From: a virus
IMG/VR virus record: IMGVR_UViG_3300027736_000047
Span: 1-62,193 of that record
DNA: 62,193 nt
Strand: one strand, 5' to 3'
The position numbers and the translations under genes were made by a program. Positions 5,025 through 61,650 of this stretch are shown here, in pieces; the first letter of the stretch is position 1; each line of letters starts with the position of its first letter. The notes under the pieces are model-generated. The model had not been told where the DNA came from. It worked only from the letters and a program-made list of their open reading frames with translations, and searched no databases.

Positions 5025-7859
5025 ATGGCCCGTAAGTTTTTAACCCCGATTGATTTAAACAAATTAGAATTACAAAATGCAAGAATACAAAACTTAGCGA
5101 CCGCTCCAGCATCTCCCGTAGTTGGTCAAGTTTATTTTGACACAGTATTATTATATCTACGTACATGGAATGGCACTGCATGGATTAATGCAAGTCAAGG
5201 TTCTCAAGGAACTACTGGAGCACAAGGTACACAAGGTACCCTTGGTGCACAGGGAACTCTTGGAACACAAGGTGCGGTAGGTAGTCAAGGTACTGTTGGT
5301 TCACAAGGAGCAGTTGGCTCACAAGGTACAGTAGGTTCCCAAGGAACTGCTGGTGCACAAGGTTTAAACGGTTCTAATGGTGCTCAAGGTACACAAGGTA
5401 CCTTAGGTGCACAAGGTGCTGTAGGTTCTCAAGGAACTCAGGGAACTCTAGGTTCACAAGGTACTCAAGGAACTTTAGGTTCACAAGGTACACAAGGAAC
5501 TTTAGGCGCACAAGGTACTCAAGGAACATTAGGTGCTCAAGGTCTTGACGGAACTCAAGGTACTCAAGGTACTGAAGGTTCATTTGGTGGTATTACAGTT
5601 GAATATACCTTCAGTACTAGCACAACTATGTCAGACCCAGGCGATAATTTTGCTCGTTTCAATAATGCTGCATTAACCGCAGCGACCAGTCTTGCATTAG
5701 ACATTAACCCTTCTGATGGTAACTACGATGTCTCTAACTTCTTACAAACTATTGATGATTCAACATCTACTATTAAGGGTCACGTAAAAGTATCTAAGAA
5801 AAATAATACTTCTGTTTTTGCTCTTTATACAATTGCTAGTGTTGCTGATCAAACAGGTTGGTTTACTGTTGGCGTTGCTTATGTTTCTGGTAACGGAACC
5901 TTTAGCAATAACGATGAACTTCTATTTACATTTGCTCGTACTGGTGATGTCGGTGCTCAAGGAACCCAGGGAACAACTGGTTCTCAAGGCGTACAAGGAA
6001 CATTAGGTTCACAAGGAACTCAAGGTACCCTTGGATCTCAAGGTACTGTTGGATCTCAAGGAACTCAAGGTACTGTTGGTTCTCAAGGTACAGTTGGCTC
6101 ACAAGGAACTGTTGGTAGCCAAGGTACTCTTGGTGCACAAGGTGCAGTTGGTTCACAAGGAACTGTAGGTGCACAGGGAACTCAAGGTACTGATGGAACT
6201 CAAGGTGTACAAGGAAGTGTTGGTACTCAAGGAACCCAAGGTACTGTTGGATCTCAAGGCGTACAGGGAACTGTAGGTTCACAGGGAACCCAAGGAACTC
6301 TTGGAGCACAGGGAACTGTTGGTAGCCAAGGTACACAAGGAACTCTAGGTACTCAAGGTTTACAAGGTAAAGAAGGTAACTTTGGCGGTGTAACTGTTGA
6401 ATATGCATACAGTACAACCACCGCAATGTCAGACCCAGGTTCAACAAATATACGATTTAATAATGCATTTTTAGCATCTGCAACTCATCTTGTAATTGAT
6501 GATGAAGATGTAAATGCAACAAACATCTCTTCATATTTAGCAACTATTGATGACTCTACATCAACAATTAAGGGTCACGTAAAAGTATCTAAGAAATCTA
6601 ATGCGGCTGTATTTGCAATGTATGCAATCAACTCAATGGTTGATGACACAGGTTTCTTTAATTTAGATATTACATACTTATCTGGTGCTGGTTCTTTATC
6701 AAATACCGATGCAGTTCTTGTAACTTTTGCTCGTACTGGTGACGTTGGAGCCCAAGGTACTCAAGGTACACTCGGAGCCCAAGGCGTACAAGGTACAGTC
6801 GGATCTCAAGGAACCCAAGGAACTCTAGGAGCCCAAGGTACAACAGGCGCTCAAGGTACACAGGGCACAACAGGTACTCAGGGAACTGTTGGATCTCAGG
6901 GAACTCAAGGCGTACAAGGAACACTAGGAGCGCAGGGTACTCAAGGTACCCTTGGATCTCAAGGTACTGGTGGAATCCAAGGAACTGTCGGTTCACAGGG
7001 TACTGGTGGTACTCAAGGCGTACAAGGTACTTTAGGTACTCAAGGTGCTACTGGTGCTCAAGGCACACAGGGAACTCTTGGTGCACAGGGCGTACAAGGA
7101 ACTCTTGGAGCCCAAGGTACAACTGGTGCTCAAGGCACACAGGGAACTCTTGGTGCTCAAGGTGTTCAAGGAACACTAGGTGCTCAAGGTGTTCAAGGAC
7201 AATCTGATCGCTACAAGACAACCTCTACAACTACACGTTCAATTGCAGTAGCAAACAACGTAAGTTTTGTACTGGTTGATCCAAATCTTTCATACTCAGT
7301 AGGTCAAGACGTAGTAGTTGCTTACGATGTAAACAACAACATGTCTGCAACTGTAGTAAGTTACACAGCAAACACTGACACACTCGTCGTAAACGTTAAT
7401 GACGTTAGAGGTTCAGGAACATACTCTGCATGGTCAATTAACCTAGACGGTGCTACTGGTGTACAGGGTACAACTGGTGCACAAGGTACTCAAGGTACAT
7501 TAGGTACTCAAGGAACCCAGGGAACTCTTGGTGCTCAAGGTACACAAGGAACTGTAGGTTCACAAGGAACCCAAGGAACTCTTGGTGCTCAAGGTACACA
7601 AGGAACTCTTGGAACTCAAGGTACCTCTGGTCAACTTGGAACTTACGCAGAGACTATTACTCCAGTATCTCCATATTCAGCAACAACCTTTACAATTACA
7701 CACAGTCTTGGAACACGAGATGTGTTAGTAACTGTTCAAGACGCTACCTACAACGAAGTAGTTACTGATGTAGTTGCATCAACTACATCTGCTGTAACTA
7801 TCGGATTTGCAGTTGCTCCTGTTTCAGGTGAAACATACAGGGTAGTAGTTAAGGCTTAA
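5025..7859 (+). CDS. Collagen-like tail fibre protein (four Gly-X-Y blocks)
   Basis: 944 residues. Order: N-terminal fibre domain (1-57, with VVGQVYFDT and [10 protein letters not shown]), collagen block 1 (about 58-186), globular domain 1 (187-307), block 2 (308-450), globular domain 2 (451-571), block 3 (572-725), globular domain 3 (726-808), block 4 (809-868) and a C-terminal beta domain (869-944, [19 protein letters not shown]). Blocks are mostly [12 protein letters not shown] and GTV triplets with no proline, so the helix would be stabilised by Gln/Thr contacts rather than hydroxyproline. Globular domains 1 and 2 are paralogous (GG[IV]TVEY start, [11 protein letters not shown] end). The triplets are very rich in Thr, a possible O-glycosylation target given the glycosyltransferase cassette at 8.9-11.7 kb. 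Ribosome site AAGGAG precedes ATG 5025. Confidence 0.85.
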
Positions 7860-7862
7860 TAC

Positions 7863-8285
7863 GTGAGTAAAAAAGCACTCGTACCATTAAACCTGTTTGC
7901 AGGAGGTTCAACACCTACTGGTAGATATGTTGGAGATGCTTATTTTGATACATCTTTAGGACGTCTAAAGATTTATAACGGCTCTGTTTGGCTTGAATTT
8001 CTTCCTACAAGTCAAACAGAGGAAATTCTGTATATTGATGGTGGCTTATATAGCACAGCATCTTATGGAGCAACCTCTGACGGGGGTTATCCAGACTCAG
8101 ATTACACCTCTGAATATGATGGTGGTGGAGTATGGAGCACTGCTTTATATCCAGATGGTCCACCAATTGATTTTTATGATGGTGGAATTTTTTCTACAGT
8201 TTATACCGCAAGTTTAGATGCTGGAGCCTACAATACTGTTTATACTGAAACAGGAATTGATGCAGGAGTTGTACAACAACCGTAA
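7863..8285 (+). CDS. Small fibre-associated protein with DGG repeats
   Basis: A 140-residue protein whose N-terminal half (GDAYFDTSLGRLKIYNGSVW) matches the N-terminal domain of the preceding collagen-like fibre protein, pointing to a shared docking site. The C-terminal half carries four loose repeats built on Asp-Gly-Gly followed by a Tyr/Ser/Thr strand (IDGGLYSTASY, YDGGGVWSTALY, YDGGIFSTVY, LDAGAYNTVY). Start is GTG at 7863, three bases after the fibre stop. Probably a virion fibre component; no enzymatic motif is visible. Confidence 0.55.
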   Translation: MSKKALVPLNLFAGGSTPTGRYVGDAYFDTSLGRLKIYNGSVWLEFLPTSQTEEILYIDGGLYSTASYGATSDGGYPDSDYTSEYDGGGVWSTALYPDGPPIDFYDGGIFSTVYTASLDAGAYNTVYTETGIDAGVVQQP

Positions 8286-8318
8286 AAAGTTGCAAGTTAA
8301 AGATCTAGGAGATCATCA

Positions 8319-8897
8319 ATGTCAACACTAAGAATTCAATCTCGCAGAGGCACAGCAGCACAGTGGACTTCTGCAAATCCAATCCTGTTTTCTGGTGAAT
8401 CTGGATTTGAAACTGACACAGGTAAATTTAAAATTGGTGATGGTACAACTGCTTGGACTTCTCTTAATTATCAAAATATTAGTGGTGCTCAAGGAACCGC
8501 TGGTACACAAGGAACTTTAGGTACAACTGGTAGCCAGGGAACCCAGGGAACACAGGGTACTCAAGGTACTCAAGGTACTCAAGGTACTCAAGGTTCTCAA
8601 GGCATTGTTGGTAGCCAAGGAACAACTGGTACTCAAGGAACTTTAGGTACTCAAGGAACTGTTGGTGCTCAAGGTGCTGTTGGTAGCCAAGGAACTACTG
8701 GTACTCAAGGAACTTTAGGTACTCAAGGTACACTCGGTTCTCAAGGTACTACAGGTGCTGGTACACAGGGTACACAAGGTACTCAAGGAACTTTAGGTTC
8801 TCAAGGTGTACAAGGATCTGCAATTCAAGGTACGGCAGGAACTTCTCCTTCAGGAACAGCCTCAGTTTCAGATGTACTAATGCTTGGTGGAATGTAA
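8319..8897 (+). CDS. Short collagen-like fibre protein
   Basis: 192 residues. The N-terminal 48 residues (LRIQSRRGTAAQW, then GESGFETDTGKFKIGDGTTAW) form the domain that opens many phage fibres and hyaluronidase-type tail proteins. Residues about 53-170 are Gly-X-Y triplets ([12 protein letters not shown]). The C-terminus (SDVLMLGGM) resembles the end of the fibre gene at 28.2-28.8 kb (LVDTLMLMGG). ATG 8319 has AGGAG upstream. Its stop TAA directly abuts the stop of the opposite-strand gene with no base between. Confidence 0.75.
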   Translation: MSTLRIQSRRGTAAQWTSANPILFSGESGFETDTGKFKIGDGTTAWTSLNYQNISGAQGTAGTQGTLGTTGSQGTQGTQGTQGTQGTQGTQGSQGIVGSQGTTGTQGTLGTQGTVGAQGAVGSQGTTGTQGTLGTQGTLGSQGTTGAGTQGTQGTQGTLGSQGVQGSAIQGTAGTSPSGTASVSDVLMLGGM

Positions 8898-9629
8898 CTA
8901 AAGTAATTCTGTACTACCGTTATGAATTTGACTGTATTGCGCTGCCTCTAATAAAAACTTTATAGGTTTATACACCTGTGGTTTTACTGTATAGGTATTA
9001 AATTTTATTTGATTCTCTTCTTGTTTTATTCGAAAATTAAATATATACCAATCTATAGGGCAGTTAATTCCTTTAAATTCAACATCAGCAATAGTCTTTT
9101 CTGCACCCCGTCTACTAATTGCGTACCCAGCGCAAGACCACTGTTGATATGATTTACAAATATACTTTTCATTTAAGTCATGCTCAGATTCATTATAAGC
9201 AAACAAAGAATCATCAGGAACAAAAAGTGAAAAGAAATCCCATATAGGCATAAGTTCATTCATGTACATCTTAGCAATAACTTTAAAATTCTTACTAATA
9301 ACTATGTCGTCTTCAAAAATTATTAACACATCTTTATCAGATTCTAAAAACTTTTTATAAGCCAAGTAAGTACTTGCCCAAACTCCCACAACCCCAGAAC
9401 TTGGTGGAAAAGTTTCCCCTGGCTTACAAAAGTCAGTAACTGTATTTACTTTAAATTTAGGTGTTTGATTAACAAATGCTTCAGCCTTATCAGCGGTATT
9501 TAAGTATATAGTAGGGGAGCCAAGACGAGGCAAAAAAGACATAGATTTTAAAATGCCCTCATAAGATTTGTTTCTTAATCTATTTCCAGTATCAATATGA
9601 AAGACTTCAAAGCAGGCGTTATCTAACAC
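8898..9629 (-). CDS. Glycosyltransferase, GT25-like
   Basis: 243 residues. The segment VGVWASTYLAYKKFLESD followed by VLIIFEDDIVIS matches the GT25 pattern in which a helix ahead of the donor site leads into the Glu-Asp-Asp metal-binding motif (about residues 97-107). A later SCAGYAISRRGAEK segment also fits. GT25 includes LPS galactosyltransferases and the collagen hydroxylysine galactosyltransferases. It is the last gene of a leftward operon and overlaps the methyltransferase by 7 nt. Its neighbours on both sides are fibre genes, so the likely substrate is a fibre, but a host surface glycan is possible. Confidence 0.7.
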   Translation of the reverse strand: MLDNACFEVFHIDTGNRLRNKSYEGILKSMSFLPRLGSPTIYLNTADKAEAFVNQTPKFKVNTVTDFCKPGETFPPSSGVVGVWASTYLAYKKFLESDKDVLIIFEDDIVISKNFKVIAKMYMNELMPIWDFFSLFVPDDSLFAYNESEHDLNEKYICKSYQQWSCAGYAISRRGAEKTIADVEFKGINCPIDWYIFNFRIKQEENQIKFNTYTVKPQVYKPIKFLLEAAQYSQIHNGSTELL

Positions 9630-10156
9630 TTTTCAATCCATACCTGATAGCCAGATTCAATGATGTTATATTCACCCTTACAGACATTGAGGAAGCAGTC
9701 AACGCCCCTTTTAGGCTCTAGGTACTCCTTACCGCCGTAGTTCCATAGATAGTCATCAAATGCCATCACCCCACCTGATTCCAGGTGCCTGAAGCCATTT
9801 AAACCATCCATAGCGGTCTGTAGGGCGGTGTGGTCGCCATCTATGTATATGAAGTTATATGAACTAGCGTTACGAATAAAGAACTCATCACTGGTCATCT
9901 TGTGCTTTAAGATTCTTCCATCCTTTGGGAATCTTGAATCATAGTAAGCCTCTACTGAAACAAAATCCAAAGATTCATGGGCGGTCTCTTTACTGCCCTC
10001 CCACGTATCTACATCATCTAGGTATTCGATCTCTCGATTATTAAGGAGCCACTCGGTGGCGTCTCCTGTGTAGGTTCCAATTTGCAGTGCACGAAGTGGA
10101 ACACTTGGCACATGTCTAAAGTACTTTTCTACATCTTTAAACCAATTAGGAAACAT
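9623..10156 (-). CDS. Class I SAM-dependent methyltransferase
   Basis: 177 residues of a Rossmann methyltransferase. LRALQIGTYTGDATEWLL is the SAM-binding motif I region (residues about 22-39), DDVDTWEG the acidic loop, and YNFIYIDGDHTA the conserved post-motif strand with metal/SAM-site Asp-His typical of the Methyltransf_24-type family. GGVMAFDDY follows as motif IV-like strand. Such enzymes often methylate sugars, as with macrocin O-methyltransferase relatives. Here it sits in an operon with glycan genes; the target is inferred, not shown. Confidence 0.75.
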   Translation of the reverse strand: MFPNWFKDVEKYFRHVPSVPLRALQIGTYTGDATEWLLNNREIEYLDDVDTWEGSKETAHESLDFVSVEAYYDSRFPKDGRILKHKMTSDEFFIRNASSYNFIYIDGDHTALQTAMDGLNGFRHLESGGVMAFDDYLWNYGGKEYLEPKRGVDCFLNVCKGEYNIIESGYQVWIEKC

Positions 10157-10719
10157 TAGTTAAACAACTTTAGGTTATTAAGACATCCATTTATGTACTC
10201 TTCAGTCATAGAGTAATCATCTAGTAGGTGCTGGAATAAGGCTTTACTTTCATCTCTGCGTCCAACCCACCAACTAGCAACAGCCTTTTCAAACAGTAAG
10301 CAGTATGTGCCGTTGTATTCAACGTACCCTGGAAGTGGTTGATTGTGAGCATTAGTTGCAAATAATAAACCTAACTCTGCATATGTAAAGCACTCTTGAT
10401 ACTCTCTGTTGCGCTCTTTAATTCTAGACAATAAAAAGTAAGCCTCTGGTCTATTTGGTAAATAGGCAATGGCCTGCATAATGTTGTTGTATACAGTTTT
10501 ATTTCTGTCTCCTTGGGCACCCCAACACAGGGCCATCTTTAATAACGAGGTATATGTAATTAGTGGTTGAGTCTTGTACCCGTATTCAGCCGCTCTTAAA
10601 TAAAACCCTGCAGCAGATGCATACTGCAACTGCTCTTCATAAGCAGCAGCCAGGTTAAAGTTAATCTCGGCATCAAAAGGATTTTCAGCCAGTTTTAAGG
10701 CTACATCTTTAATTTCCAT
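10156..10719 (-). CDS. TPR-repeat protein of the glycan cassette
   Basis: 187 residues made almost entirely of helical repeats: NPFDAEINFNLAAAYEEQ, ASAAGFYLRAAEYG, then RPEAYFLLSRIKERNREYQE, which match the tetratricopeptide spacing of Ala/Gly/Tyr at positions 8, 20 and 27. TPR domains are commonly fused to or encoded beside glycosyltransferases, where they hold protein substrates. It overlaps the methyltransferase by 1 nt and the propeller gene by 11 nt, so the four leftward genes form one transcription unit. Confidence 0.7.
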   Translation of the reverse strand: MEIKDVALKLAENPFDAEINFNLAAAYEEQLQYASAAGFYLRAAEYGYKTQPLITYTSLLKMALCWGAQGDRNKTVYNNIMQAIAYLPNRPEAYFLLSRIKERNREYQECFTYAELGLLFATNAHNQPLPGYVEYNGTYCLLFEKAVASWWVGRRDESKALFQHLLDDYSMTEEYINGCLNNLKLFN

Positions 10720-11710
10720 AAGACATGGACTCCGTAATCATTTCATTAATAACCTTCTTAGGAACTTCAAGAAGGAAAGCACAATTATCTTGAACTCCAA
10801 AAGTTAATACTAACTTTCCTTTTATAAGAGTAGCCCCTACACAGAACTCAATTGGTGTATCTAAAAAAGAAAAGGGGGATGTAATACCTACAAAGTTAAA
10901 TTCTTTATCCCAGACAATCATGCGATGTCTGTATACGGAATCTTTTTGATTTAAATAATTTTTCCAAAGTGCAACCTCATGAGTAAAGGCAATGTAGTAA
11001 TCTCCCCAAGCAATTACATTTGTACCACCACGTTGATCAGGAGAAATCGGCGGAGTTTCTTTTACCAGTACCTGCTCACACTCAGACTTATCAGGATTAG
11101 CCTTAACAATCTCAGTAGGCATAGCCCATTTAACAAAGTGATAAGGCATGTCAAGGATAGGCATCCAATTCTTTTCACAGTAGGAGTTAACATCCACAGG
11201 AGGCGGGATACGAACTCTTTGTACCTCTGTGGCTGTCCAATTCTCTTTATCTAATTCGATCTTGGAGTACTCCATGCGACCCTGCCCATTGGTCGTGGTA
11301 TCTCGACGCACACCAATCAGGTAGTAGTTACCATCCCACTGCGTGATGCGTACATCCTCCTCGCCAACAAACTCCCAGATAGATGGAACATCTAACTTTG
11401 AGTAATCAACTTTTGTAAAATTAATTAGATTGTAATCCTTGTCAAGACGGCCTAGGTAGTTGGTCGTAACTAGCCGTTGGTCTTTTTCAGGATGTAGATA
11501 GGAGAGTGGTCCCCAAGGACTAAAAAAACGTTGATCTTTTTCTGAATGATATAGGGTGTAATTTACATGACGAATATTTACTAAGATATCGCCATCATCA
11601 TCAACAAAAATAGATGGATTCATTAAGCCCATACCAGCGGTGGTTGAGTGGGGTAAAATTAGAGGCATTAATTTGCCCCCTTGGAAAACCGATTTTTGCA
11701 CCAAATTCAT
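10709..11710 (-). CDS. Five-bladed propeller glycosidase/phosphorylase-like protein (GH130/GH43-type fold)
   Basis: 333 residues. The pattern fits a five-bladed propeller glycan enzyme: an early NPSIFVDDDGDILVNIR blade, GEEDVRI (about residue 115), EKNWMP (about 165), RGGTNVIAWGDYYIAFTHE (about 225) and FCVGATLIKGKLVLTFG near the end. The EKNW and ExDxRI elements recall GH130 mannosyl-phosphorylases and related glycosyltransferase-associated proteins. The catalytic acid cannot be fixed by eye. First gene of the leftward operon, it probably trims or transfers a sugar in the same pathway as the GT25-like enzyme. Confidence 0.5.
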   Translation of the reverse strand: MNLVQKSVFQGGKLMPLILPHSTTAGMGLMNPSIFVDDDGDILVNIRHVNYTLYHSEKDQRFFSPWGPLSYLHPEKDQRLVTTNYLGRLDKDYNLINFTKVDYSKLDVPSIWEFVGEEDVRITQWDGNYYLIGVRRDTTTNGQGRMEYSKIELDKENWTATEVQRVRIPPPVDVNSYCEKNWMPILDMPYHFVKWAMPTEIVKANPDKSECEQVLVKETPPISPDQRGGTNVIAWGDYYIAFTHEVALWKNYLNQKDSVYRHRMIVWDKEFNFVGITSPFSFLDTPIEFCVGATLIKGKLVLTFGVQDNCAFLLEVPKKVINEMITESMSYGN

Positions 11711-11821: not shown

Positions 11822-12151
11822 ATGGCAACAACATATAAGGTATTAGGGCAATCTAATCCCTCAGCAACAACAGCAACAACTCTATATACAGTACCCTCCG
11901 CTACTTCAACGGTAGTATCCACAATCACGGTATGTAATCAAGCAGCCTCTGCTGCTACTTTTCGGGTTGCTGTAAGACCTGCTGGTGCAACACTTGCAGC
12001 ACAGCACTACGTTTCTTATGATGCAACTGTGGCTGCAAATGATACGACAGCCCTTACATTAGGTATTACTCTTGCTACTACCGACGTAGTAACCGTGTAT
12101 GCATCAACTGCAACTGTTTCATTTTCAGCATTTGGAAGCGAGATTGCATAA
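11822..12151 (+). CDS. Small Thr/Ala-rich virion protein
   Basis: A 109-residue protein predicted to be all beta: TTLYTVPSATSTVVSTITVC, AATFRVAVRPAGATL, then QHYVSYDATVAANDT. This pattern is common in small tail or fibre proteins of phages from aquatic metagenomes, where it resembles a jelly-roll. Upstream AAGGAG gives a strong ribosome site. The stop overlaps the next start by 1 nt (TAATG), so it is probably co-translated with the glycine-rich fibre protein. A precise role is not known to me. Confidence 0.6.
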   Translation: MATTYKVLGQSNPSATTATTLYTVPSATSTVVSTITVCNQAASAATFRVAVRPAGATLAAQHYVSYDATVAANDTTALTLGITLATTDVVTVYASTATVSFSAFGSEIA

Positions 12152-13014
12152 TGGCTATATCTAAACTTAATGTTGTTACTGCAGGACCCAACGCAAGTTC
12201 TGTTACAGTACCTGCGGCAAACACAAACTATTCCGCAACAGTGGCTTTAACTGCTGCTGTTTATACTGTTACTTGCGCTACTACGGTACTAGCAAGAGTT
12301 GCATTTATGTCAAGTGAAACAACAGTAGTTGCTACAGCAGAAACTGCTTCTGGAACTGTAGCCGTAAATATTCCTTCTGCTGTAAACCGTATAAAACTAT
12401 GGACTGATGCTGGTACAAGTATTGTTGTTACAATTACATTAGTAGCGTCTGCTGTAGCACCCGTTGCTGTTAGTGGGACTCTGGATACAATTACATCTTC
12501 AACAACATATACAACAACATCAACCTCTGGTTACGCCTATGTTATGGCTGCTGGCGGTGGCGGTGGCGGTGGCGGTGGTGGTAACGGTGGCGGTGCTGGT
12601 GGCGGTAGCGGCGGTGCTGGAGCGTCACACATAGCACTTACAGGTTCCCTTCCAGTTACTATTGGTGCTAATGGTACTGGTGGACCTGGTGGAACAAATG
12701 GAACTGACGGAGGAACAACCACCTTTGGTGGAATTACTGCTACTGGTGGAAAATCCCCAACTAATGGCTCACTTGGTTATGGCGGTGGCGGTGCAGGTGG
12801 AACAGCAACTGGCGGTACTTGGAATGTTCCAGGAAATGCGGCGGCTTCATCACCTGGTTCAGTAAGTGGCACGTCTGGTGGCAGTAGTGTTACTGCTAAC
12901 TCTGCAATCATTGCAGCAGGATATGCTCGTTCTAATGGTGGCACTGGTGGTTATTACCAGAGTGGATCTGGTAGTGCTGGACAAGGTGGAGTGGTCTATG
13001 TGTTACGTTATTAA
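12151..13014 (+). CDS. Glycine-rich tail fibre/adhesin
   Basis: 287 residues. Residues 1-108 form a beta-rich N-terminal domain resembling the previous small protein. Residues about 132-287 are a glycine-rich domain with a run of nine Gly interrupted by Asn/Ala/Ser, then Gly-rich loops, ending in GQGGVVYVLRY. Such domains fold in phage adhesins as sheets of polyglycine-II helices and carry receptor-binding loops. Likely a receptor-binding tip protein. Gly codons use GGTGGCGG repeats at 12552-12620, a slippage-prone tract that could vary in length. Confidence 0.65.
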   Translation: MAISKLNVVTAGPNASSVTVPAANTNYSATVALTAAVYTVTCATTVLARVAFMSSETTVVATAETASGTVAVNIPSAVNRIKLWTDAGTSIVVTITLVASAVAPVAVSGTLDTITSSTTYTTTSTSGYAYVMAAGGGGGGGGGGNGGGAGGGSGGAGASHIALTGSLPVTIGANGTGGPGGTNGTDGGTTTFGGITATGGKSPTNGSLGYGGGGAGGTATGGTWNVPGNAAASSPGSVSGTSGGSSVTANSAIIAAGYARSNGGTGGYYQSGSGSAGQGGVVYVLRY

Positions 13015-13071: not shown

Positions 13072-13374
13072 ATGGCAACTTTTGCAGTAATTGAAAATGA
13101 CGTTGTTACTAATACACTTGTTGCTGCATCTTTGACTATTGCTGAGACAATTACTGGTAAAACCTGTGTAGAATACACAGACGAACCAGCAGAACCTGGT
13201 GGTAAATATGTAGGTGGAGTCTTTATCCAACGTAAACCTTATCCTAGTTGGATAAGTCACAACGTATCTTATTGGAAGGCTCCAGTTGATTTACCAACTT
13301 TTGACCCAGAAAACCCAAAAAACTATGTTTGGGATGAGTCTGTTACAAATTGGGTAGAATCTCCTATAGTATAG
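13072..13374 (+). CDS. Small fibre-associated protein
   Basis: A 100-residue protein of a type frequent in aquatic phages: FAVIENDVVTNTLVAASL, a TGKTCVEYTDEPAEPG segment, then YPSWISHNVSYWKAPVDLP and YVWDESVTNWV. The Trp/Tyr/Pro-rich second half is characteristic and probably binds or chaperones a fibre. No catalytic motif. It lies between the glycine-rich fibre gene and a glycosyltransferase. The 57-bp gap upstream is very AT-rich and contains a T7 run at 13039-13045 that might weakly terminate transcription. Confidence 0.55.
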   Translation: MATFAVIENDVVTNTLVAASLTIAETITGKTCVEYTDEPAEPGGKYVGGVFIQRKPYPSWISHNVSYWKAPVDLPTFDPENPKNYVWDESVTNWVESPIV

Positions 13375-13396: not shown

Positions 13397-14095
13397 ATAA
13401 ATACTAAGTCTAAAGAAAAAGTAGTTATTGGTTGGTGTGATAACGGTTTAGTAGATGGAACATTTGCTGCAGGATTAATCCAGGTAATACTTAATGCTAA
13501 AAATAACGGTATTAATATATTTGCTGCAATGAATGTTCAAGGCAATCAAATTGGTAAACAAAGACAGATATTATTTGATAATTGGGCAGATTCTACCGAT
13601 ATAGATTGGCTTTTGTGGATAGATTCAGATGTTTCATTATCTATAGATATAGTAAAAAAGTTATGGGATACAGCAGATAAAGATCTTAGACCTATAGTAA
13701 GTGGAATTTATTTTATTTCTAAGAGTACAGGTGACGTACTTATGCAACCTTTTCCAGCCATATTTAAAAACATTGACGAACACACCTTACAATACATACA
13801 CCCTTTACCTGAAAATCAAGTAATAGAAGTTGATTCTGCAGGAATGGGGTTAGTACTTATGCATAGATCTATTGTGTCAAAATTAAGAACAAAATTTCCA
13901 AATCAATCAGTCTTTGCTGAAAAACCTGGTATTGGTAAAGACTTTGTTGGTGAAGACATTGCTTTTTTTAGAAAAGTAAAAGAGGCTGGAATACCAATAC
14001 ACGCTCATACTGGAGCCATAGCAAAACACATAAAACGGTTTCCATTAGATATGAATTATTATGTATCTTACTGGAATTCTTTAAAACCAGAATAA
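13397..14095 (+). CDS. GT-A-fold glycosyltransferase (GT2-like), apparent AUA start
   Basis: The conserved part contains DIDWLLWIDSDVSLSID, a DxD metal-binding motif of GT-A enzymes, and GKDFVGEDIAFFRKVKEAGI, the downstream ED motif that places the acceptor base. The first ATG in frame (13529) would remove the first beta strand (KEKVVIGWCDNGLVDG), which lies in the same open frame back to 13370. No ATG, GTG or TTG exists there. The best site is ATA at 13397 after AAAGGGGGAG (13383-13392), giving MNTKSKEK and 232 residues. It could glycosylate fibres or host surface sugars. Confidence 0.65.
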   Translation: MNTKSKEKVVIGWCDNGLVDGTFAAGLIQVILNAKNNGINIFAAMNVQGNQIGKQRQILFDNWADSTDIDWLLWIDSDVSLSIDIVKKLWDTADKDLRPIVSGIYFISKSTGDVLMQPFPAIFKNIDEHTLQYIHPLPENQVIEVDSAGMGLVLMHRSIVSKLRTKFPNQSVFAEKPGIGKDFVGEDIAFFRKVKEAGIPIHAHTGAIAKHIKRFPLDMNYYVSYWNSLKPE

Positions 14096-29184: not shown

Positions 29185-31125
29185 GTGGCTAAATATGGCG
29201 TAAATTTTTATGGAGCATCTACATACGGTGCTCTTGCAAAACTTGCTTACTCTGTTGAACCGATGTCTGCTTTGGCATTGGACTTTTCAAGAATATTAGT
29301 TGCTTGGCAAACTCCTCGTGGAACATTTACTCAGGTTCGGTTAGTAAGAAATCAAGCGGGTTACCCCGAGACATCTGAAGATGGGGTAATAATTTTTGAC
29401 GAAAAAGCAACTGAGGGAAATGTTTCCCGTGCTTATTTTGTTGATGGAGAAACTAATCCTACAGATATACCTTTAGTTACAGGAAGACAAACGTACTACC
29501 GTTTTTTTATATTTACAGGTGAAAAAGTATGGAGAACTGCTGGTTCAATATCAACAGTTCTTCCAAAAAATCATGATGCTCAAAAAACTTTTATAAATAC
29601 TTTACCTCGTGTATACACAAGTGCAGAACAGAGTCCGTTTGGAGCAGTAAATACTGCGTCTACTTTATATGACTTTCTAGACGGAATGTTATTTACTCAA
29701 GAAGAGTTCTTAACTAAATTAGATCTATTAAGGCCAAAGCATACTGGATTAGAAACTCCTATTGAATTAGTACCACTAGAAACTGCAAACTACGGCTTAA
29801 CACAAGAACCCACACTTCCAACTAAAAATCAAAAAAGACTTGTGCGTGAAGCACTGTATATGTATTATAGAAAAGGAACTAAACTTGGTTTAGAAACTTA
29901 CTGTGAATCTTTAACTGGATTTGCACCAACAGTAGTGGTGTCTCAAAATCGATTATTAACTGTTCAAGACTCGACCTTTTATAAAGGAATTGGAAATTGG
30001 GTAGCAAGCAATGCAACATTAACCTCAAGTACTGAACAGGTTCCTGATACTAATACTAATCAAATTGATACTGTTTATACTGGAAAAATTGTTGCAAGTA
30101 ATTCTGGAAGTATGGTGCTTGGTGCTTCCAACATTATTACTAAAGGAGTACCTGTTAGCCCATCTACTCAATACACCGTGTCTTGTAAATTAAAGTGCCC
30201 AGCAAGTTCTGGTAATATAACTTTATCTGTCAGGTATTACGATAAATATGGAACTGCAACATCGTCTGCAAAGACTGCGTCAGCGGTTGCAGCAAACAAC
30301 ACTTGGAAATCATCAAGCATCACTTCTACATCAGATGCTACTTCAGTATATGCAATTATAACAATTGCGTACAGTGCTGCTGGAACATATTACATTGATC
30401 AGGTATGTATGCAGACAGGAGCATCCGCAGTTTATGATGAGGCTCGTAGTATTGATATCTTTTTAAATCCAAAAAAATCTAACTTAATTAAAAATCCATC
30501 TTTTGAAACTAACGTAACAGACAGTTGGACAGCAACTGGTTCACCAACCATAACACAGGATGCTAATGTTTCTGATTTAGCATACTCTGGAATAAAGAGC
30601 GCTAAGGTAGTTGCTACGGGTGCTTGGACACTAAAGTCCAACACAATGCCAATTACAAGAGGTCTCTTTTATACAGCCTCTGGATTATTTAAGGCTACAA
30701 CAAGTTTAACTGTAAGTTTAGTAGCAAGAAATAGCGGGGGAACTATAGTGGGGGTTAGTACTACGTCTGTTTTAGGAACTGCGGTTAACTGGTCAGAGTT
30801 TACATCCACAATTTTAACGGATGCAACCACATCCACAGCAAGCACTTATGAAATTGTTTTTTCAGGAGGTTCTGGCACATTTTATTTAGATTGCATACAG
30901 TTTGAAAAGAGTCCAACAGCAACAGATTACTTTGATGGTTCCTTGCCTTCAGATTTTGGAGCGGTATGGGAAGGCACCGCACACAACTCCTACTCTCATC
31001 TATACCCAACAAAACCACAGAAGATTCAACGTCTAGGTAAGACTTTAGTTGACTGGGTTCCTCAGAATACCTTTTGGCGCCTACGCACATACGGCGGAGT
31101 GGAGTACACGACCACGACGGTGTAG
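29185..31125 (+). CDS. Tail protein, gpI-like, with carbohydrate-binding-type domains
   Basis: 646 residues. Residues 1-130 include a fibronectin-like section (RILVAWQTPRGTFTQVRLVR). Residues about 135-270 match P2 gpI-type tail proteins: LPRVYTSAEQSPFGAV, LYDFLDGMLFTQEEFLTKLD, RLVREALYMYYRKGTKLGLE. Two tandem jelly-roll domains follow (about 270-420 and 432-600); the second opens NLIKNPSFETNVTDSWTATG, a CBM4/9-type start. It probably links baseplate to fibres and binds cell-surface glycans. Start GTG 29185 follows AAGGACGG. Confidence 0.75.
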   Translation: MAKYGVNFYGASTYGALAKLAYSVEPMSALALDFSRILVAWQTPRGTFTQVRLVRNQAGYPETSEDGVIIFDEKATEGNVSRAYFVDGETNPTDIPLVTGRQTYYRFFIFTGEKVWRTAGSISTVLPKNHDAQKTFINTLPRVYTSAEQSPFGAVNTASTLYDFLDGMLFTQEEFLTKLDLLRPKHTGLETPIELVPLETANYGLTQEPTLPTKNQKRLVREALYMYYRKGTKLGLETYCESLTGFAPTVVVSQNRLLTVQDSTFYKGIGNWVASNATLTSSTEQVPDTNTNQIDTVYTGKIVASNSGSMVLGASNIITKGVPVSPSTQYTVSCKLKCPASSGNITLSVRYYDKYGTATSSAKTASAVAANNTWKSSSITSTSDATSVYAIITIAYSAAGTYYIDQVCMQTGASAVYDEARSIDIFLNPKKSNLIKNPSFETNVTDSWTATGSPTITQDANVSDLAYSGIKSAKVVATGAWTLKSNTMPITRGLFYTASGLFKATTSLTVSLVARNSGGTIVGVSTTSVLGTAVNWSEFTSTILTDATTSTASTYEIVFSGGSGTFYLDCIQFEKSPTATDYFDGSLPSDFGAVWEGTAHNSYSHLYPTKPQKIQRLGKTLVDWVPQNTFWRLRTYGGVEYTTTTV

Positions 31126-49919: not shown

Positions 49920-50591
49920 ATGGCAAAATTTGGTGTAGATCCACATGGTCGTTGGGATAAAAACATTGCAGAATCTCAATTTAAAAGTCATGTAGACAAT
50001 ATTATAAATAAATACCGTGAAGCAACTCCAGCATTGCTTGAAGGGGGTCATCAATGGTATGCAAAAGCGCATGAAGAAGCAACCAAACTTGGTAAAGGTG
50101 ATACAAAACGTGGCGCAGGAATTATTGCGGCATTATCCCCATTAAGTGATTGGGATAGAAATGTTAGAGAAGCAAAAGAGTTAGTAAAGACTGGCGATGT
50201 TAAGAGCGCTCTTCTTCCAGCAAATGTTGCAAAGGCTCAAAGAATTCATGCAGGAGAACCACCAGAAGAAGTACTTGGTGGTCACAAAGTAACTAACTTT
50301 TTTCAAAATATACATGACCCAAGTAACACCTCACCAGTTACAATTGATCGTCATGCTTATGATATTGCAATGGGTAGACCATTTGCTGGAACAGGAAGAT
50401 CAAAAACTGCAGAAGATTTAAAAGTTCCAAGACAAACAGGAGTAATGTCTCAAGATTTAGGGTTAAGTTCAATGGGTCGATATCAACACTTTGTACATGC
50501 ATATCAACATGCCGCTGGCGAATTAGGGGTTGATGTTCCAAATAAAGCACAAGCAACTTCTTGGGTAACTCATAGAGGGGCAATAGGATGA
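49920..50591 (+). CDS. DUF7178-like helical protein
   Basis: 223 residues. The family pattern as I recall it: HQWYAKAHEEATKLGKGD, then RGAGIIAALSPLSDWDRNVR, AKAQRIHAGEPPEEVLGGHK, FFQNIHDPSNTSPVTIDRHA and GRYQHFVHAYQHAAGELGVD. The layout (GIIAALSP...W..N, G.K...F..NI, VTID.HA) is widespread in phages as DUF7178 and resembles helical DNA-glycosylase-like folds, with Lys (in GGHK) and Asp (VTID) in suggestive places. Enzymatic activity is not established. Confidence 0.6.
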   Translation: MAKFGVDPHGRWDKNIAESQFKSHVDNIINKYREATPALLEGGHQWYAKAHEEATKLGKGDTKRGAGIIAALSPLSDWDRNVREAKELVKTGDVKSALLPANVAKAQRIHAGEPPEEVLGGHKVTNFFQNIHDPSNTSPVTIDRHAYDIAMGRPFAGTGRSKTAEDLKVPRQTGVMSQDLGLSSMGRYQHFVHAYQHAAGELGVDVPNKAQATSWVTHRGAIG

Positions 50592-59686: not shown

Positions 59687-60316
59687 CTATTGCTTTGCTT
59701 TTACTACAAGGAACTGTTCCATTAACTGTTCAGTCTTTGGGGTAATTCCATGCCAAGCATTCCAATTTTTACCACCATTACTCATGTAATAAGTAATGGT
59801 CGCATTGACCACAGGGTTGAGCAGTTCGGCATTAGATTTTAATCCAAACTTATCTCTACGATCTTGACCTAACTCTCCAAGCATATTTATTTGAAACATG
59901 CCCCACGAGTTATCGCCTGTGTCTGTATTTCCATTGTGAGCGAGAGGTCGCCCATTACTTTCTTTCTTAGCGACTGCCCATGCTTCTTGAAGGTCTTGAC
60001 CTTTGAAGCCTACGGCTTGTAGCAACTCGACCAATTCTATATCGGTCAAAGTATTAGCGTTCTGATACTTTTTCAAAGTTGCTTCTCTCTTTGTTTGTTG
60101 AACTAACTGGGCTTCGGCTTTAGTTGGCGCAAAGGCTATGGAAGTTCCAAATGCCATTAAACCAGTTGCTAGGATCAAAACGATCCCACCTACTCCTAGT
60201 GCTTTTAGTTTTGCTTTGGCTCGGCGGTTTTGCTCTGCCATTACCTTTGCTGATGCTTTTGCTATTGCTTTGGCATCTGCTTCGGCTCTGTTGATTATCT
60301 TGTTATTCATCATCAC
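59687..60316 (-). CDS. Membrane-anchored lysozyme/SLT-like protein
   Basis: 209 residues. A Lys/Ala-rich cytoplasmic start (KAIAKASAKVMAEQNRRAKA), one transmembrane segment (about 41-63, GVGGIVLILATGLMAFGTSI), an Ala-rich linker, then an SLT/lysozyme domain: EAWAVAKKESNGRPLAHNGN with candidate catalytic Glu119, DNSWGMFQINMLGELG and NPVVNATITYYMSN. It overlaps the integrase by 4 nt. It could be an anchored or signal-arrest endolysin or a host-wall remodelling enzyme made in the lysogen. Confidence 0.75.
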   Translation of the reverse strand: MMMNNKIINRAEADAKAIAKASAKVMAEQNRRAKAKLKALGVGGIVLILATGLMAFGTSIAFAPTKAEAQLVQQTKREATLKKYQNANTLTDIELVELLQAVGFKGQDLQEAWAVAKKESNGRPLAHNGNTDTGDNSWGMFQINMLGELGQDRRDKFGLKSNAELLNPVVNATITYYMSNGGKNWNAWHGITPKTEQLMEQFLVVKAKQ

Positions 60317-61650
60317 TCCAAATAGCCATTGGCACTTTCAGATGCCTTTGACTGGTGTGAACGAAGGCGGTGTAAATACCGCTCTGTCGTCTTGATCGAT
60401 TGATGACCTAATCGCTCTTTTACTTCATGGACATCTACGCCGTTCTTTAATAACTGCGTAGCGTTGGCATGTCGTAAATCGTGAGTTCTAGGAAACCAGC
60501 CGATTGCGGACTTGGCTATTGCTTTGTTCCATGTTGTTCTCCATACATCACGAGGCATGTGGCTCATATTGTTGATGAAACTCCCTTGCTCTTGCTTCTG
60601 CTGATGCTTCTGCTTTGCCTTACGGCTTCGGCTTCCTACCTGCTTTGCTTCTGCTAGTGCTTCTGCTTGGGCTTTGGCTTTGCGGTAGTTTCCTACTGCT
60701 TGCCTACACCCTTCGCATCTACAACCCCCATGTGTATAGGAGTAGAGAGTTCCATGCTGGAACTGTTTTCCGCCCTTCTCGAATGGTCGAGGGGGCTTTG
60801 CGCCTTGTGAACCTTTAAGTTTACTCTCCGTTAATAGTATTGTTCTTGGGAACATCAGATCATCTTTTGCTATGCCTTTTGCTAGGACATACGCTTTTAA
60901 TTGCTGTAATAGGGCTTTGCTTACTACTAAACTTCGCTTTTGCCCCGACTTCGTGGCATCTACCACTAGAAATCTCTCACCTTTGTTATACGCCTTGCCT
61001 AGATCACTAACTCGCCTTTGAATAAATATCTCGCCAGTTTTGAAATTAATGTCTTTTGCTCTTACTTCTGTGGCTTCCCCATAGCGACACCCACTTGCTA
61101 CTAGGAACTGGGCAAATAGTTTAGTTCCGTTAGTTGGTAGGTGCTTCACTATCTCTTTGAACTCGTCAGGCTCTAATACATTGGAAATATCGGCATGATT
61201 AATTTTGATCTTAATTCCATGAGTAGGATTAATTTCCATTTTTCCAGCACTAACTAACTTAGAAAACATAGAGCCAAGAGAAGCCTTAACTTGATTGAGC
61301 GTTGCGGGCTTAACGCCACTTAATTTGAGATCATCAATTAACTTAACTAACTCTGAAGGCTTCAGGGAAGTTAGTTCCCGATCTCCTATAACTGGAATTA
61401 CAAATCTAGTTAAGACCGATTTATAGCCCTTCTTTGTAATCGGCATGAGGTCAGATACCGCCAGCCATTGATCTACATAATCGCCTACCTTCAAATTAGC
61501 CCTTAAAGGGGGCATAGAGCCACACTTCTCCCCCTGTATGGCGTGATACATGGCTTCGGTTTCATTAGCCCATGTGCCAGCCGATACACGCCGATTTCCA
61601 AGCCTGTAATAGCCAGTAAATCTGCCGTTGCGCTCAATCACATACGCCAT
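60313..61650 (-). CDS. Tyrosine integrase with Cys-rich insert
   Basis: 445 residues. N-terminal arm-binding domain (MAYVIERNGRFTGYYRLGNR), core-binding region (VGDYVDQWLAVSDLMPITKK), and catalytic domain: Arg189 (GCRYGEA), Lys234, His390-x-x-Arg393 (THDLRHANATQLL), His416 (RLGHQS) and Tyr425 (TERYLH). Between about 290 and 360 is an extra segment with HGTLYSYTHGGCRCEGCRQA (Cys310, 312, 315) and a Lys/Ala/Gln-rich linker. It would integrate the phage at a tRNA-like attB; candidate attP lies 130 bp upstream. Confidence 0.9.
   Translation of the reverse strand: MAYVIERNGRFTGYYRLGNRRVSAGTWANETEAMYHAIQGEKCGSMPPLRANLKVGDYVDQWLAVSDLMPITKKGYKSVLTRFVIPVIGDRELTSLKPSELVKLIDDLKLSGVKPATLNQVKASLGSMFSKLVSAGKMEINPTHGIKIKINHADISNVLEPDEFKEIVKHLPTNGTKLFAQFLVASGCRYGEATEVRAKDINFKTGEIFIQRRVSDLGKAYNKGERFLVVDATKSGQKRSLVVSKALLQQLKAYVLAKGIAKDDLMFPRTILLTESKLKGSQGAKPPRPFEKGGKQFQHGTLYSYTHGGCRCEGCRQAVGNYRKAKAQAEALAEAKQVGSRSRKAKQKHQQKQEQGSFINNMSHMPRDVWRTTWNKAIAKSAIGWFPRTHDLRHANATQLLKNGVDVHEVKERLGHQSIKTTERYLHRLRSHQSKASESANGYLE

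Follow-up and report, generated by a model that had tools for sequence, protein, structure and literature searches.

A propeller–TPR gene cassette tied to proline-poor collagen-like tail fibres of aquatic phages and its probable role in fibre modification

The virus contig IMGVR_UViG_3300027736_000047 of IMG/VR, analysed here over its positions 1 to 62,193 (62,193 nucleotides, the window), carries two genes for collagen-like fibres that abut an overlapping unit of four genes on the opposite strand. This arrangement raises the question of what a glycosyltransferase, a methyltransferase, a TPR protein and a propeller protein do beside such fibres. The comparative and structural evidence below indicates that the four genes are probably a phage post-translational modification cassette for its own collagen-like tail fibres.

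The larger fibre gene (5025–7859, plus strand) encodes 944 residues and matches Pfam Collagen (PF01391) with an E-value of 1e-67. The second (8319–8897, plus strand) encodes 192 residues, with an N-terminal Mtd_N anchor domain (E 7e-16) followed by a collagen region (E 1e-15); both products are probable substrates. Counted in runs of at least five, they contain 198 Gly-X-Y triplets, of which 161 lie in the larger protein, in five blocks of 43, 49, 25, 22 and 22 triplets with globular domains between them, and 37 in the smaller. Thr occupies the X position of 85/161 and 25/37 triplets, respectively, and Gln the Y position of 95/161 and 23/37. The triplets of the larger protein are free of proline, with mainly Thr, Ala or Ser at X and mainly Gln at Y, and neither fibre has lysine at Y. 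Runs of at least eight triplets are confined to these two genes among the open reading frames (ORFs) of the window, and none arose in 100 shuffled versions of the complete window. A previous sequence-only reading had described both genes as Thr/Gln-rich Gly-X-Y fibres, and coordinates, composition and Pfam matches all agree with that description.

The stop codon of the second fibre gene (8895–8897) touches that of the first minus-strand gene (8898–8900), tail to tail and with zero bases between them. The unit (8898–11710, minus strand) comprises a GT25 glycosyltransferase (8898–9629; PF01755, E 1e-9, GTG start), a class I S-adenosylmethionine-dependent methyltransferase of the Methyltransf_24 family (9623–10156; E 4e-11), a TPR protein (10156–10719; TPR_17, E 2.5e-7) and a five-bladed GH130/GT108-like propeller (10709–11710; GH130 E 1.6e-3, below the cut-off), with overlaps of 7, 1 and 11 bp between successive genes. 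The ORFs and profile matches bear out the overlapping four-gene unit that had been proposed directly after the fibres. Promoter patterns around the cassette (8 versus 8.7 in shuffles) and terminators (4 versus 2.1) showed no clear excess and were not used, and an NCBIfam search gave no useful names.

The propeller family is present in more than 590 IMG/VR contigs among the matches listed. For all comparisons that follow, these contigs are mostly fragments, the loci compared are related by descent and the control sets are small. Pfam Collagen was found in 39/48 propeller records of at least 31 kb, including all those above 65 kb; among the three named phages in this set, DSL-LC01 has only a distant propeller homologue of 26% identity. 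The cassette therefore does not occur mostly in phages devoid of Gly-X-Y fibres, in line with the sequence-only reading. Among 28 records chosen without regard to the propeller, collagen was present in 5/5 with it versus 5/23 without it (p=0.0026). A collagen gene lies directly beside the operon in 9/19 clusters versus 3.1 expected (p=5e-4), and the zero-spacing junction with a collagen gene recurs in 37/59 convergent loci. A control scan with the T4-like baseplate gene of DSL-LC02 returned one contig and was not used.

The tie is to one type of collagen. Fibres of propeller loci have Pro in 0.5–2.5%, Lys or Arg in ~1.5% and Gln at Y in ~62% of their triplets, whereas viral collagens of the proline type have Pro in 52% of triplets. 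The Pro-poor, Gln-in-Y type accounts for 106/109 propeller loci with collagen. In a converse survey, viral contigs were scanned for Gly-[Pro/Thr]-Y repeats regardless of the propeller, which gave 41 records of at least 10 kb. With the Pro-poor Gln-Y class defined by Pro below 0.2 at X and Gln of at least 0.4 at Y, cut-offs that were fixed after the compositions were known (the contrast was visible earlier in independent sets), the propeller was found in 6/6 records of this class versus 0/35 other collagen records (p=2e-7), in part of which the collagen stretches are short or doubtful. A QG[TS] recognition motif occurred at 1.12 and 0.96 times expectation, which is no meaningful enrichment.

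Composition also bears on the idea that the cassette alters a host surface glycan, for example against superinfecting phages, and lies near fibres as part of a shared host-recognition island. One published interpretation of fibre-region glycosyltransferases in aquatic phages is host-surface change (PMC7029224), and cell-wall modification is one suggested role (PMC10202952); GT25 is also a family of lipopolysaccharide enzymes, and DSL-LC02 has a separate large cluster of glycosyltransferase and GDP-sugar genes. A dependence on collagen composition would, however, be unexpected for such an enzyme. The recurrent tail-to-tail abutment with a collagen gene and the presence of the cassette in phages of very different hosts also argue against a host-surface role, which we consider unlikely.

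Several observations, besides the late choice of the cut-offs, weigh against fibre modification. Co-occurrence of cassette and collagen is by itself no proof of a substrate. Collagen is missing from 9/48 propeller records, all of them fragments below 65 kb; the propeller and collagen genes of S-SCSM2R are ~8 kb apart rather than adjacent; and the collagen of DSL-LC01, where the distant propeller has no TPR partner, is Pro-rich. Propeller phages also hold other glycosyltransferase clusters that could act on the host. Nevertheless, the same separation speaks against linkage or shared ancestry as the sole explanation, by which Gln-type fibres and cassette would be one mobile block with no enzyme–substrate relation. 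Both do lie in hypervariable fibre islands with intense recombination (PMC10202952), but their association outlasts separation in long genomes, as in S-SCSM2R and in a record (G094) whose propeller has no collagen in the surrounding 18 kb. Moreover, gene orientation and neighbouring enzymes differ among loci while the pairing of fibre and cassette persists, and bare linkage is thus extremely improbable.

The GT25 enzyme scores 38.8 bits against a PF01755 cut-off of 24, and its acidic metal-binding motif (E106, D107 and D108) is invariant across 23 sequences. Its profile matches a bacterial GT25 beta-1,4-galactosyltransferase, COLGALT1 (E ~1e-7) and Mimivirus R655 in the PDB. The AlphaFold model, with a predicted local distance difference test (pLDDT) score of 76.5, has a GT-A fold of the GT25 type by Foldseek. 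The closest solved folds are human COLGALT1 (template modelling (TM) score ~0.61–0.65 over the query), followed by R655, with bacterial GT25 enzymes also found. Side-chain hydroxyls in the triplets of propeller-linked fibres come almost exclusively from Thr and Ser; in the window fibres, Thr predominates among them and sits mainly at X, not at Y. The predicted nearness to collagen galactosyltransferase folds and these Thr/Ser hydroxyls support fibre modification. GT25 was present anywhere in 6/8 propeller-bearing collagen records versus 5/37 others (p=0.001, with two weak matches counted); like the methyltransferase, it is an accessory enzyme of this branch, and the cassette does not always include it.

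The same results bear on the possibility that the cassette glycosylates another virion protein, such as the capsid or tail tube, and is merely located in the fibre region. Such targets have a precedent in Mycobacterium phages, whose capsid and tail tube subunits are reported to carry glycans (Freeman et al. 2023, cited by PMC12619734). The correlation with collagen type, kept across unrelated structural modules, and a GT25 fold nearest to collagen-modifying enzymes are at odds with this alternative and make it very unlikely.

The propeller scores 17.9 bits and does not reach the GH130 Pfam cut-off of 26. Its five-bladed AlphaFold model (pLDDT 85) resembles GH130 beta-mannoside phosphorylases and the Leishmania MPT GDP-mannose mannosyltransferases (6q4x, 6q4w and 6q4z) by Foldseek, with moderate TM-scores of ~0.55, and as modelled it is a distant relative of these enzymes. 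Residues E118-D119-x-R121 and D308 are invariant; in the profile alignment, the former fall on the GH130 GLEDPR motif and D308 lies near the C-terminal GH130 aspartate. A profile comparison with a single bacterial GH130 aligned the EDxR motif only, and donor-site residues could therefore not be mapped. The sequence-only reading had assigned the propeller a trimming role. Trimming or recycling of mannosides by a phosphorylase or glycosidase would concern one step only, would be compatible with fibre modification and does fit the fold and the catalytic-Asp motif. GH130 phosphorylases, however, also synthesise from mannose 1-phosphate (PMC4264767), the same fold includes GDP-mannose mannosyltransferases, and the constant pairing with synthetic glycosyltransferases and methyltransferases suggests building. 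Because the propeller resembles both mannoside phosphorylases and GDP-mannose mannosyltransferases, the addition or extension of a sugar is the likelier activity, and trimming appears rather doubtful. In one locus (L547, 13430–14343), the propeller gene is broken into ORFs of 186 and 130 residues by a frameshift or sequencing error.

The TPR protein scores 30.9 bits against a TPR_17 cut-off of 24.4, and the methyltransferase 44.2 bits against a Methyltransf_24 cut-off of 26.3. In 165/177 distinct loci, the propeller gene has a neighbour that matches the TPR profile, and propeller plus TPR form the constant core of the cassette. Further genes vary and include FkbM, Methyltransf_24, GT25, GT2, GT17, radical SAM/SPASM, DUF6445 and ATP-grasp proteins, a cytidylyltransferase and mannose-6-phosphate isomerase, with domains of the last in two accessory genes. 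That the accessory genes encode modification enzymes fits a role of the cassette in fibre modification. DUF6445 accounts for 15/103 cassette proteins, and radical SAM/SPASM domains are also recurrent. The TPR profile additionally matches longer relatives, in which the TPR part is fused to FkbM and radical SAM domains; in DSL-LC02, all three are combined in a single polypeptide. Two other roles were considered and rejected: DNA hypermodification, as the cassette has no link to replication genes and a strong link to collagen, and an anti-phage defence system, for which PADLOC gave only a weak generic methyltransferase match of 16 bits.

From these data we infer the following scheme for substrate, acceptor, sugar, step order, TPR role and benefit. 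In the infected cell, GT25 would transfer a hexose onto the hydroxyls of Thr and Ser in the Gly-X-Y triplets, the propeller would add or extend with mannose from GDP-mannose or mannose 1-phosphate, and the methyltransferase would methylate the glycan or a side chain. The TPR protein, which may bind the fibre, would keep enzyme and fibre together. The best-supported chain would have GT25 O-glycosylate Thr, the propeller add or extend with mannose and the methyltransferase set a methyl cap; the action of GT25 on Thr and the capping are plausible. DSL-LC02 contains at 92–102 kb (locus L393, 28917–39408) a glycan cluster of several glycosyltransferases (one of them GT25), FkbM, GDP-mannose 4,6-dehydratase and GDP-fucose synthase, and GDP-mannose chemistry is thus available in this phage. 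Gln at Y, as constant as Thr at X, may help the enzymes to recognise the fibre or may even be modified itself. Decoration would lend stability to a triple helix without proline or hydroxyproline, give the fibre a surface suited to its receptor, or both; PMC3368898 cites Thr glycosylation as a means of stabilising collagen, and a change in receptor binding or protection from proteases are alternative purposes to helix stabilisation. The dedicated fibre-glycosylation system proposed from sequence hence gains strong support from the comparative collagen link, while its trimming step is not supported.

Hydroxylysine glycosylation of the animal or Mimivirus kind cannot apply to the phage fibres, since Lys is nearly absent from their triplets. 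A scan of window proteins that covered part of the window ORFs found no lysyl hydroxylase or PLOD-type domain, and GT_PLOD is absent from all propeller records searched. An unclassified virus contig (IMGVR_UViG_3300020409_000778; locus L427, 2798–5178) encodes a 607-residue fusion of GT25, a PLOD-type glycosyltransferase (PF25342, E 4e-49) and a 2-oxoglutarate-Fe(II) oxygenase. Beside it lie a second 2-oxoglutarate oxygenase and a collagen ORF that is rich in Pro and contains Lys/Arg. This unit apparently represents L230/PLOD-like collagen lysine modification, a second type of viral collagen modification.

Named carriers of the propeller are S-SCSM2R and the Synechococcus phage DSL-LC02 of the Kyanoviridae, in which the cassette lies between collagen and tail-fibre genes. 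The structural module of the window resembles that of the Streptomyces myophage BRock; neither collagen nor propeller was found in the BRock-like named relatives. As DSL-LC02 belongs to the Kyanoviridae and the window module is BRock-like, at least two unrelated lineages carry the cassette, and its hosts are cyanobacterial and probably actinobacterial. A propeller search of bacterial genomes gave four matches; no cellular home was found in this search, because all four lie in metagenome-assembled genomes and at least one contig (L156), with collagen genes beside a propeller-TPR pair, has a phage-like look. More broadly, it is conceivable, with a confidence that falls somewhat short of even, that proline-free phage collagen (Gly-Thr/Ala/Val/Ile-Gln) depends for its helix on a propeller and TPR cassette whose glycosyl- and methyltransferases are exchangeable. 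This route to collagen would differ from both prolyl hydroxylation and the glycosylation of hydroxylysine and would be widespread in fresh and marine waters.

Other genes of the fibre region include a small ORF between the two fibre genes (7863–8285, plus strand) without Gly-X-Y triplets or assigned function. Further fibre genes had been expected beyond 11710, and tail-like genes do occur there, but no collagen triplets were found, so that the fibre identity was only partly right: an ORF without a Pfam match (11822–12151) is followed by a Gly-rich tail protein without triplets (12151–13014) and an ORF without assigned name (13072–13374). An extra glycosyltransferase (13529–14095, plus strand; phrog_34859, E 6e-85) is on the same strand as the fibres, has relatives in only 25 ORFs among the cassette loci compared, and possibly plays an accessory role outside the conserved cassette. 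Elsewhere, the window encodes a baseplate or fibre-like protein with a carbohydrate-binding CBM_4_9 domain (29185–31125, plus strand; E 3e-7), a DUF7178 protein (49920–50591, plus strand; E 5e-43) and, at the contig end, an SLT_3 lysozyme-like gene (59687–60316, minus strand) with a 4-bp overlap with a tyrosine integrase gene (60313–61650, minus strand).

The strict tie to one collagen type provides a testable enzyme–substrate prediction for the more than 590 aquatic phage contigs, and a possible function for genes currently labelled ‘beta-mannosyltransferase’ or ‘FkbM methyltransferase’. It also offers a bacterial system for studying the stability of proline-free collagen, and small, soluble, collagen-decorating phage enzymes are possible tools. 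For aquatic phages with glycosyltransferases in the fibre region, published proposals are protection of DNA or a change to the host surface (PMC10202952, PMC7029224), and a search that excluded preprints and most subscription papers found no published description of a phage collagen-fibre modification cassette.

Viral collagen modification in Mimivirus and virion glycosylation in mycobacteriophages are already known. The Mimivirus enzymes L230 and R699 act on viral collagen, and the GT25-like R655 is a proposed hydroxylysyl galactosyltransferase (PMC9546862). Both systems have virus-encoded glycosyltransferases that act (L230, R699) or would act (R655, the phage GT25) on the virus's own collagens, collagen genes in the same virus and, in R655 and the phage GT25, similar folds. 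The Mimivirus enzymes, however, act on hydroxylysine made by L230, whereas the phage fibres are almost Lys-free; the phage unit also contains a propeller of GH130/GT108-like type together with TPR and methyltransferase proteins. COLGALT1 (GLT25D1) shares the GT25 fold, but the phage enzyme is a single domain of 243 residues with 15–18% identity, and its fibres offer no hydroxylysine acceptor. Mycobacteriophage glycosyltransferases likewise modify virion proteins (Freeman et al. 2023, via PMC12619734), but their targets are capsid and tail tube, the enzymes are different and no collagen link is described. The propeller shares the five-bladed fold and the EDxR catalytic-Asp motif with GH130 phosphorylases and Leishmania MPT, but at 10–16% identity and below the Pfam cut-off, it forms a separate phage-borne family paired with TPR. 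In BclA of the exosporium, Thr occupies the Y position of Pro-containing triplets. BclA is also a bacterial protein with O-glycosylation in its collagen-like region (as cited in PMC3368898), but it is cellular, whereas the phage fibres carry Thr mostly at X and lack proline.

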